DNA of 64,000 nt, from contig CAJXQC010000013.1 of assembly GCA_913058495.1 (NCBI GenBank), positions 1 to 64,000 on the forward strand, read 5' to 3'. Numbering within the stretch: position 1 is the stretch's first letter; every line of letters begins with the position of its first letter. A model generated the notes under the pieces. The model was not told where the DNA came from. It did not search any database and was given only the letters and a program-made list of their open reading frames with translations. The stretch is from an uncultured Balneola sp. GTDB taxonomy: Bacteria > Bacteroidota > Rhodothermia > Balneolales > Balneolaceae. Positions 30,034 through 32,821 of the stretch are shown piece by piece. The position numbers and the translations under genes were made by a program.

Positions 30034-30426
30034 TTACCAGTCAAAAGCATTGAACTTAATTTCTGGCAAAACTTCTGGTTGTCCACTTAATGTCAGCTCT
30101 CGAGTTCTTTCTTCATTCTCTGTAGAAAGAAGCCTCTCAATCACAAAATTATAAGTAAGCAGATCGTTGTTATAAATTGCGGGAAATACCACCGCCACTG
30201 AATATACACTGTCAATAGGTGCGGTATCTGTAAGTTCTAAATACTGACCTGAGTTTTCACCTAGTGGAGCAATGTCGCCTTTCAAATAGATCTTATTTGT
30301 TAACGTGTTAAATAGCCCGTTATCCAAAGCATATTTCATATCCACATTGAATGTTACTGATGTTTGTGCTTGGCTAAAAGCTGTTAAACTTATAGCGAAC
30401 GCCATTATAAGTATTACTTTTTTCAT
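30034..30426 (-). CDS. small exported beta-sandwich protein downstream of pseudopilin-like operon
   Basis: A 130-residue protein with a signal peptide (ending TAFSQAQ, about residue 20). Its mature chain opens TSVTFNVDMKYALDNGLFN and contains YLKGDIAPLG. The VTFxVDM opening recurs in Bacteroidota extracellular proteins, often starch-binding-like or SusE-like sandwiches. It follows the DUF4900-like gene by 54 bases on the same strand and may be part of that operon. No firm function. Confidence 0.65.
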   Translation of the reverse strand: MKKVILIMAFAISLTAFSQAQTSVTFNVDMKYALDNGLFNTLTNKIYLKGDIAPLGENSGQYLELTDTAPIDSVYSVAVVFPAIYNNDLLTYNFVIERLLSTENEERTRELTLSGQPEVLPEIKFNAFDW

Positions 30427-30480
30427 AGTACTTTTATTTTATTAGTATTTGTTTTTTTAAAGTCTTTGTTCAGCTTCATT

Positions 30481-31797
30481 TCAATATCCACTAGTATTAG
30501 AAACAACTCTCTCCTTCCAGGAAACCACAGTAAAAACACTTTCTCTAGGAAAATGAGGAGGAATTGAATTCCCTAATCTTTCATCATATTCATATTTCTT
30601 TGTATATCCGGTTACACCATATCTACCAAAAGTTCCTACGGGACCTCTTGTTTCCTGGATAATTCCACCAAGTAAGTCAATATTACCTCTGTGAGATCCT
30701 GCAACATAATTTTCCACCCTGAAAGAACTTCCCAAAGCCATAAATGAACCATGAAGCTTAAGGTCTTTAGATCCTGTTCTTGAATGAGCATTTTGATCTA
30801 TTAAGATATCTCCTTCACTCACTACCCCTAACAAATCTGTGGATGAGTCATCTACTCTCGGATCAACGTTATAAGCAATGTCATCATAGATCTCTACTTC
30901 CTCTTCAGAATGTATGGTTATTTGTCCTGAAACAGTTCCTTCCAAATAAATTTTTTCGCTTGAAGAAAGTATTCCGTTATGTGTTTCTTTAGGATAATTT
31001 ACAAAGGCTGTCCAATTTCTTGAACCGCTATCATATTCACTCACTTCAATACTTCCATCAGATTGCATAATCATATACGATAATCTATTGAAGGTAAGCC
31101 CATCGCTTATAGCGGCAGTTTTTAAAGCAGCTACTTTTGCTCCGGATGGCAATTCTCTGGTTTGTGCATTAAAATCTGTGGTTCCTTGAAAATCCGGAGT
31201 AGCATCTCCCTCCACAGTTCCATCTCTTCCTCTCCATAAATTCGGACTGGATACATGACCATAGAATGTAGGAGAGCCTGACATCTTGAACGTTCCGTTT
31301 GTATGTATAGGCCCACTAATTTCATCTGATGAATAAAAATATATATTATTCCCTGAGCTGGTTTTTTCTTTGTCTGAGAAGTAGGAATATTTAGAAAACG
31401 AATCTCTTCTCATTAAAACTTCAGTAATTACTTTACTATCACCATAGGTAGCCTCGCTAAACAACAGAACCTTAAAGATGTCCCACCCTCCCTCGCCTAC
31501 AGAGTATAAGGAGTCTCTGGCATCAAGTTCATCAATGTTTTCAATATCATAGGTCTTTAGAGTTGCGTTTCCGGGCAGAATACTTCCCCCTGTGAGTTCG
31601 CCTTCCCATGTATTATCACTTCTTATTTTTTCAATAGCTGTTTGAATTAGACTATTTGTAGAGTTTCTAGCCTGAACCTCACTTATAGCATCTGCAGAGC
31701 GTTCGGGTAATAAGCTAGCACGCTGGCTATTTGAATACTGGATAATTCCGGAAAGCATTACTAAACCACTTACTAATAAAAGCATTGATCGTCCCAT
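30481..31797 (-). CDS. PilX-like / DUF4900-type pseudopilin-like protein
   Basis: The 438-residue protein starts with a membrane helix at residues 4-23 and no separate leader. It continues as a polar helix (ADAISEVQARNSTNSLIQTA), the shape of PilX-type minor pilins. The rest resembles DUF4900, with short repeated strands typical of a beta-helix: DEISGPIHTNGTFKMSG, EKIYLEGTVSGQITIHSEEE, GDILIDQNAHSRTGSKDLKL, GGIIQETRGPVGTFGRYGV. There is no GFxxxE prepilin peptidase site. Eight bases separate it from the PilW-like gene upstream. Family membership is by pattern, not alignment. Confidence 0.68.
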   Translation of the reverse strand: MGRSMLLLVSGLVMLSGIIQYSNSQRASLLPERSADAISEVQARNSTNSLIQTAIEKIRSDNTWEGELTGGSILPGNATLKTYDIENIDELDARDSLYSVGEGGWDIFKVLLFSEATYGDSKVITEVLMRRDSFSKYSYFSDKEKTSSGNNIYFYSSDEISGPIHTNGTFKMSGSPTFYGHVSSPNLWRGRDGTVEGDATPDFQGTTDFNAQTRELPSGAKVAALKTAAISDGLTFNRLSYMIMQSDGSIEVSEYDSGSRNWTAFVNYPKETHNGILSSSEKIYLEGTVSGQITIHSEEEVEIYDDIAYNVDPRVDDSSTDLLGVVSEGDILIDQNAHSRTGSKDLKLHGSFMALGSSFRVENYVAGSHRGNIDLLGGIIQETRGPVGTFGRYGVTGYTKKYEYDERLGNSIPPHFPRESVFTVVSWKERVVSNTSGY

Positions 31798-31805
31798 AAT
31801 TCCTC

Positions 31806-32396
31806 CTAATAAATTAGATTATTTGCTACTATTCTGCGCTTCCAATAGGACCGATAGTACAATTCTGTTCCATTTTTTTTTGTCAAATAAGGTTCATTTG
31901 ATTCTACTAACACTTCAACTTCCACCTGTACTATATCTTCTATTTGTGCAGGTACATTACCATCTATATCATAATAATTGATTTCAAAATCACTAACTGG
32001 ATAACGGAACTCAATTTCATTTGCCGGAATACTTGGAGTCTGATTCCATGTCCTGATAAGAACAAAATCATTCGGATTTGTTGTAGTCGTATCTAGCTCA
32101 GAAGTAATTGCCCACTCAACTAAGTCAAAATCATCTGATCCATCATCGTCAAAAATATTACCTCTAAAAATAATTGCGCTGTCTTCTGCCATTACAAAAG
32201 CCTCCGAAATACCTCTGTCATATCCTATTCTGTTCAAATCATTTTGGAGTATAGAAACGATGTTATCAAGCTTATTTTGTGTAATAACGCTTGAAGTTGT
32301 TTCAACAGTAGAGTTAAACAAGGAGTAATTATATGCTAAAATTGATATCAGCATTAAGCCCCCAATGATATATGTAGTTGCTAATCCTAAATTCAT
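31806..32396 (-). CDS. PilW-like pseudopilin-like protein
   Basis: The 196-residue protein has an N-terminal membrane helix at 6-27. It is followed by TQNKLDNIVSILQNDLNRIGYDRG, whose second half matches the PilW pattern in which a helix LxxDLRxxGY leads into a beta domain. The late strand region (EIEFRYPVSDFEINYYDIDG, VEVEVLVES) and the closing YRSYWKRRI also fit a minor pseudopilin. No GFxxxE motif precedes the helix, so processing by PilD is not expected. Its start overlaps the upstream gene by four bases. Confidence 0.68.
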   Translation of the reverse strand: MNLGLATTYIIGGLMLISILAYNYSLFNSTVETTSSVITQNKLDNIVSILQNDLNRIGYDRGISEAFVMAEDSAIIFRGNIFDDDGSDDFDLVEWAITSELDTTTTNPNDFVLIRTWNQTPSIPANEIEFRYPVSDFEINYYDIDGNVPAQIEDIVQVEVEVLVESNEPYLTKKNGTELYYRSYWKRRIVANNLIY

Positions 32397-32821
32397 CTTT
32401 CAAAAGACTTAATAAAGATTAAATCTACCTCCGTGCTAGGATCTACTTCTTCATTAATAACATTTACCGTTATCCTATATCTTTTTACCAGAGGATCCCC
32501 TTCATCAATATATTCTGAACTGGCATCAATTATGAAAGTATCCGTATACTCATCATTATAACCATAAGTCTCACTATCTGTGATTGGGTAACTGCTAAAC
32601 ATATAGTCAATATGGCTGGGATTGAGCATATTTTCATCTTCTCTTTGAACCAGCTTAACCTGCTCAATTACATCCTGTGCTCTTATTATAGTCCTGTATT
32701 CAACATCCGAACGAATTACTGTTTCCGAAGTGCTCAAAAAACTTCTGGCAGTATTAATGGTTAAAAAAGAGTAAACAACCATTGCGGCTGTTAAGTATAG
32801 TACATCAGAATAATCGTTCAT
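32393..32821 (-). CDS. PilV/GspI-like small pseudopilin-like protein
   Basis: The 142-residue first gene of the operon has a membrane helix at about 8-27 (LYLTAAMVVYSFLTINTA). An amphipathic helix (YRTIIRAQDVIEQVKLVQ) and a small beta domain ending RYRITVNVIN and EVDLIFIKSF follow. Size, order and helix-then-sandwich plan resemble PilV or GspI, but there is no leader peptide or GFxxxE site. Its last four bases overlap the PilW-like gene, so the trio is co-translated. A perfect DnaA box lies 14 bases before its start, likely by chance. Confidence 0.65.
   Translation of the reverse strand: MNDYSDVLYLTAAMVVYSFLTINTARSFLSTSETVIRSDVEYRTIIRAQDVIEQVKLVQREDENMLNPSHIDYMFSSYPITDSETYGYNDEYTDTFIIDASSEYIDEGDPLVKRYRITVNVINEEVDPSTEVDLIFIKSFER

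Follow-up and report, generated by a model that had tools for sequence, protein, structure and literature searches.

A minor-pilin-like gene trio of an uncultured Balneola probably encodes the tip proteins of a leaderless type IV-like pilus

The window analyzed here, a 64,000-nucleotide stretch from the draft genome of an uncultured Balneola sp., contains genes that probably encode the tip proteins of a leaderless type IV-like pilus. In the reading that we favor, to which we assign a probability of roughly 0.8, V142, W196, and X438 supply the tip and priming minor pilins to a type IVa-like pilus, which has its machine genes on contig C11 of this genome and is built from pilins made already mature. 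The observations on which this reading is built are gene order and conservation, the predicted folds of W and X, the homologs of machine proteins, and the finding of no leaders, no N_methyl matches, and no detectable A24 prepilin peptidase. An earlier note on this DNA had offered as its first option a diverged filament-tip complex that is not processed, and this option is supported by the fold, the missing leaders, the machine genes, and the operon linkage described below.

Table 1. Features of the trio and the gene that follows it (positions in the window)
Gene	Description	Position	Strand	Evidence
V142	leaderless minor pilin at PilV/GspI position, first gene of module	32393-32821	-	ORF; orthologs conserved
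W196	leaderless minor pilin, PilW/GspJ-like	31806-32396	-	ORF; alignment A2; AlphaFold; Foldseek
X438	leaderless large minor pilin, GspK/ComZ-like	30481-31797	-	PF16241; AlphaFold; Foldseek
E130	small protein with Sec-type signal peptide, possible partner	30034-30426	-	ortholog position; alignment A6

The four open reading frames claimed by the earlier note were all found where it had placed them on the minus strand (Table 1). V142 and W196 share 4 nt (ATGA), W196 is separated by 8 nt from X438, whose start is preceded by AGGAGG, and a gap of 54 nt lies between X438 and E130. A hydrophobic helix begins within the first few residues of V142, W196, and X438, in line with the membrane helix that had been ascribed to each N terminus, and E130 starts with a cleavable-looking signal peptide. 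The DUF4900 assignment of X438 also held, with a match to PF16241 at an E value of 4.6e-8 (33.7 bits against a gathering cut-off of 29.4); the same family was matched at E ≤ 0.05 in 16 of 29 X homologs. A Bactofilin match in X438 (E value of 0.006, below cut-off) was read as generic beta-solenoid similarity. Apart from DUF4900, none of the four proteins gave a credible PDB or Pfam sequence match; Pfam and NCBIfam searches with V142, W196, and E130 yielded nothing credible, and for E130 neither a family nor a PDB match was found. The likeness of W196 to GspJ/PilW is one of fold only; by sequence, W196 had no credible match in Pfam, NCBIfam, or the PDB.

The AlphaFold model of W196 (pLDDT of 90.7) consists of a helix spanning residues 3 to 55 and a following beta-sheet, and that of X438 (pLDDT of 84.8) of a helix spanning residues 2 to 60, a sheet, and a beta-solenoid with DUF4900. 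The best Foldseek match of W196 was 3cfi_B from the EpsI:EpsJ pseudopilin complex, with a modest E value of 3.1e-3 and a probability of 1.00; among the 50 matches listed, none of the others rose above a probability of 0.21. For X438, the top three matches were the three chains of 6qvi, ComZ of Thermus thermophilus (best E value of 4.0e-11, probability of 1.00). ComZ, a pilin into which a beta-solenoid is inserted, has been proposed as a tip-located DNA receptor, and its pilin domain resembles GspK (PMC6561018). Global TM-scores between X438 and ComZ are low (0.27 to 0.37), a plausible reason being that the superposition treats two domains and a long helix as a single rigid body; the joining of a beta-solenoid to a pilin-like domain, as in ComZ, is seen both in the X438 model and in its Foldseek matches. 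X438 differs from ComZ in being shorter and in having DUF4900, and ComZ belongs to the Thermus competence pilus, which has a prepilin peptidase system. Structure predictions devoid of a pilin-like fold had been named as evidence against a filament-tip complex; both models are of the helix-plus-sheet kind, with pilins as their top matches. The order of a small, a GspJ-like, and a GspK/ComZ-like protein is that of a minor-pilin tip set, upholding the likeness to PilV-PilW-PilX that had been drawn from the sequence.

To place the start codons, the first residues of the trio proteins are informative: V begins with M[NS]DYSD, W with MNxGI, and X with MGR or MGK in the alignments, and since conservation sets in at the initiator Met, the starts of V, W, and X are fixed. 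The ORF list contains no earlier in-frame start for V142, W196, or X438, and the open frame of X438 reaches only 7 codons upstream of its ATG (445 versus 438 aa). Among 331 distinct N termini, comprising pilins together with V, W, and X, none carries a GFxxxE-type site (0/331), as the earlier note had claimed for the trio; an upstream in-frame start is absent in 319 of them, and the upstream stop lies at a median distance of 3 to 5.5 codons. A hidden GFxxxE leader brought to light by an upstream start, the other finding that had been named as contrary evidence, is thus ruled out by the ORF list and the scan of the 331 N termini, in which no upstream start shows a leader. No class III prepilin leader, marked by G(-1) and E(+5), is found. 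Because Glu5 of canonical pilins is not conserved in the leaderless pilins, their assembly chemistry must differ from that of canonical pilins.

The enzyme that would cut such leaders is not detected either. Profile searches of the window draft genome gave no match to the A24 prepilin peptidase (PF01478) or to N_methyl (PF07963), searches that were positive in 12 (PF01478) and 8 (PF07963) of 14 control genomes, and in the phylum sample the A24 peptidase is absent from 115 of the 130 genomes with an MGQQQ pilin. As the major pilins are also leaderless and the peptidase is missing genome-wide, the peculiarity is one of the pilus as a whole. It is very unlikely that some divergent or unknown peptidase nevertheless processes the pilins close to the N terminus, for instance after Gly2. 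This residue is invariant in the pilins and X, recalling Gly-1 of prepilins, but it is missing from W and V in the window genome; there is no basic leader to remove, K or R being found within the first six residues in 0 of 205 pilins; and the scarcity of the A24 peptidase just described, in the window genome and in most of the phylum-sample pilin genomes, argues in the same direction. Met-Gly is, moreover, a good substrate of methionine aminopeptidase, which also counts against a dedicated processing step.

A machine that could assemble unprocessed subunits is encoded in the same genome. The remark that no assembly ATPase or platform gene lies nearby is true of the window but not of the genome, which has both on contig C11; the proposed check for type IV pilus genes elsewhere returned two T2SSE ATPases, PilC, a secretin, and leaderless pilins. 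The genome is 99.4% complete, and its T2SSE ATPases number exactly two, both in a single C11 operon that contains, in order, the secretin, a PilO-like protein, a PilM-PilN fusion, a PilT-type ATPase, a cNMP-binding protein, PilB, PilC, and two MGQQQ pilins. PilB (G000:C11; 592 aa, with a partial MshEN) matches PF00437 at 6.1e-98, the PilC platform PF00482 at 2.5e-29, and the secretin PF00263 at 6.5e-28, and the PilT-type label of the second ATPase (414 aa) was given from its place in the operon and its size. In profile comparisons with the 3jc8 pilus-machine model, which is from Myxococcus xanthus, the PilM-PilN fusion matched PilN (E value of 1e-9) and the PilO-like protein matched PilO (E value of 2.2e-4). 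The cNMP-binding protein (L033:11103-11603 on G000:C11; PF00027, 7.6e-12) lies between PilB and PilT; with a length of 160 to 170 aa it is kept at the same place of the pil operon in L093 to L097, and it may link the activity of the pilus to signaling by a nucleotide.

The C11 pilins begin with MGQQQLLLVILVTIIVGIATVVAI, and M1 to L6 are invariant in a 20-sequence alignment. Searches against named families gave weak matches only; the pilin profile matched mature Geobacter PilA with an E value of 0.008, in a weak local alignment that sets the initiator Met approximately 3 residues ahead of Phe1 of mature PilA. A profile comparison between the pilin alignment (A5) and the W alignment (A2) was not significant, so that the link between pilin and W is one of fold and operon rather than of sequence. 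A third MGQQQ pilin of 146 aa stands alone on contig C31 (L161:5743-6183 on G000:C31).

The same components could be those of a leaderless type II-like secretion system, in which the trio would tip a short pseudopilus in the periplasm, as GspI-J-K do, and exoproteins would be pushed out through the secretin. W196 resembles the EpsI:EpsJ complex, the minor-pilin fold is common to type IV pili and type II secretion systems (T2SS), and a secretin is present; this interpretation is nonetheless unlikely, because the sequences of PilM-PilN and PilO match pilus proteins of Myxococcus, a second, putatively PilT-type ATPase is encoded, several major pilins occur per genome, and some of the same genomes have a separate leader-bearing system with N_methyl genes. 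The GspI-GspJ-GspK tip complex of T2SS (3cfi EpsI:EpsJ) shares with the trio the fold of W196 and the small, medium, and large order of V, W, and X, but here there is no leader or peptidase, and the companion proteins are of the PilM/N/O type.

Evidence of that separate system comes from relatives that possess the A24 peptidase. In the class sample of 146 genomes, PilC of the leaderless type is present in 103, the peptidase in 13, and both in 11, and all 11 genomes with both have a second, distant GspF (approximately 21 to 26% identity), which we take to belong to another, canonical system. Coordinates link its parts in the family sample: in five of six examples (G043, G055, G005, G024, and G013), the peptidase is accompanied by N_methyl genes and the second GspF within approximately 30 kb of a single contig, and in G053 these are divided between contigs C16 and C17; in G036, whose assembly is fragmented, no second GspF was seen. 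Ordinary leader-bearing pseudopilins such as MKDFRSENGYSLVESL are encoded at 3.26 to 3.29 Mb of G043:C1 (L244, L245). The canonical system of G043, G053, G005, G013, G024, and G055 is probably a T2SS. The presence of the second GspF in 11 of 11 class-sample genomes makes it unlikely that the peptidase of these relatives acts on the leaderless pilus.

Homologs of X438 were found in 38 of 58 Balneolaceae genomes, and the order V-W-X, whose conservation had been put forward as a check, is constant across the fetched Balneolaceae loci; because the genes recur in the same order and with conserved first residues, the arrangement is not a matter of chance. The fetched modules contain two classes of X, long (421 to 500 aa, with DUF4900) versus short (342 to 377 aa). 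A homolog of E130 follows long-type X in nearly all of them, except in L045 and behind the first of the two copies in L039, and stands behind short-type X in no set. The earlier note had cast E130 as a possible partner of the trio; gene order behind long-type X makes E130 and its homologs (L036 to L054) candidate partners of the X solenoid. Adjacent pairs of V-W-X modules, one long-type and one short-type, occur in L040, L041, L042, L043, L045, L047, and L048, and in L039 both modules are of the long type, hinting that paired modules are alternative pilus tips.

The link between the trio and the pilus machine comes from relatives in which the two are joined. In L095 and L097, which are outside the family, the operon reads pilA-PilC-PilB-V-CRP-W-X-PilT-PilM-PilNO-secretin, with the V ortholog directly behind PilB; a similar arrangement with V, W, and X in the pil operon is found in L149, L151, and L154, and a Calditrichaeota MAG (L226) has pilA-PilC-PilB-V-W-X. 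The association with an assembly ATPase, which had been proposed as support for a filament role, is therefore observed, V, W, and X lying inside the pil operon beside PilB. The C11 operon contains no V, W, or X, and the window X is the only one found in the genome; the window module is therefore most simply explained as the minor-pilin set of the C11 machine, encoded at an unlinked site. In the family sample, PilC is present in 37 of 38 genomes with the trio versus 8 of 20 without it (Fisher P value of 1.5e-6, kinship ignored), and an MGQQQ pilin accompanies X in 105 of 109 phylum-sample genomes (kinship likewise ignored). Some Balneolaceae have PilC and no detected X, which indicates that the window-type set is not universal. 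We consider it extremely improbable that the trio is a non-filament, membrane-anchored surface complex with a borrowed pilin fold, independent of the C11 machine: although the trio of the window genome is unlinked to any assembly gene, its location inside the pil operon in relatives and its co-occurrence with PilC and the MGQQQ pilin speak against such independence.

On the favored reading, in which the trio is the minor-pilin set of the C11 pilus, all pilins of the leaderless system would be born mature. Translation of a pilin would start at, or within approximately 3 residues of, the would-be peptidase cut, and translation initiation would replace proteolytic maturation. Each subunit would enter the inner membrane by its N-terminal hydrophobic helix, the Met before Gly2 may be taken off by methionine aminopeptidase, and PilB and PilC would polymerize the subunits through the secretin with no cleavage step. 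V, W, and X would prime and cap the fiber; by analogy with the proposal for ComZ, X438 may be the tip subunit with its beta-solenoid carried outward and exposed, and W196 and V142 may connect X438 with the shaft in the manner of GspJ and GspI. Surface adhesion or motility, or DNA uptake by the solenoid tip, could be the biological role, and this is the least certain part of the proposal.

This system and the type IVa pilus have in common homologous ATPases, the platform, PilM/N/O, the secretin, and a minor set with the pilin fold. Here, however, no pilin has a class III leader, there is no N_methyl match and no prepilin peptidase, a conserved MGQQQL start takes the place of the F/M-T-L-x-E mature end, PilM is fused to PilN, a cNMP-binding protein is part of the operon, and the minor pilins are unlinked in the window genome. 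Because neither of two defining features, the class III leader and the prepilin peptidase, is found, we do not file the system as a canonical type IVa pilus, although we read it as working like one.

A scan of a named genome collection found MGQQQ pilins in Melioribacter, other Ignavibacteria, Kryptoniota, and MAGs labeled Calditrichaeota; MAG contigs labeled Deltaproteobacteria and Clostridium (L225, L237) also encode them, as mislabeled bins or by transfer. Type IV pilus genes have been reported in Melioribacter roseus (PMC3534657), and MAGs labeled M. roseus have pilA-pilA-PilC-PilB-PilT-PilM-PilNO-secretin of the leaderless kind. In the open literature, a scope that takes in few subscription papers and no bioRxiv preprints, we found no relevant description of leaderless pilins, DUF4900, or type IV pili in Balneolota. 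It appears likely that a large part of Bacteroidota (Balneolaceae, wider Rhodothermia, Ignavibacteria/Melioribacteraceae, and Kryptoniota), together with the cases labeled Calditrichaeota, has type IV pili without prepilin processing, in which the start codon lies at or near the cut site and the MGQQQL end replaces the processed N terminus with Glu5.

A survey counts the prepilin peptidase among the ancestral components of type IV filaments (PMC6668835). The leader of prepilins and the peptidase that removes it are regarded as central to these filaments, and a widespread system without both would show that cleavage is dispensable. Leaderless pilins would explain why annotation based on leader or peptidase misses pili here, for example, in Melioribacter roseus. 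If the reading is true, the roles of the leader in membrane insertion and in blocking early assembly would be separable from assembly itself, and these pili would constitute a natural experiment on Glu5.
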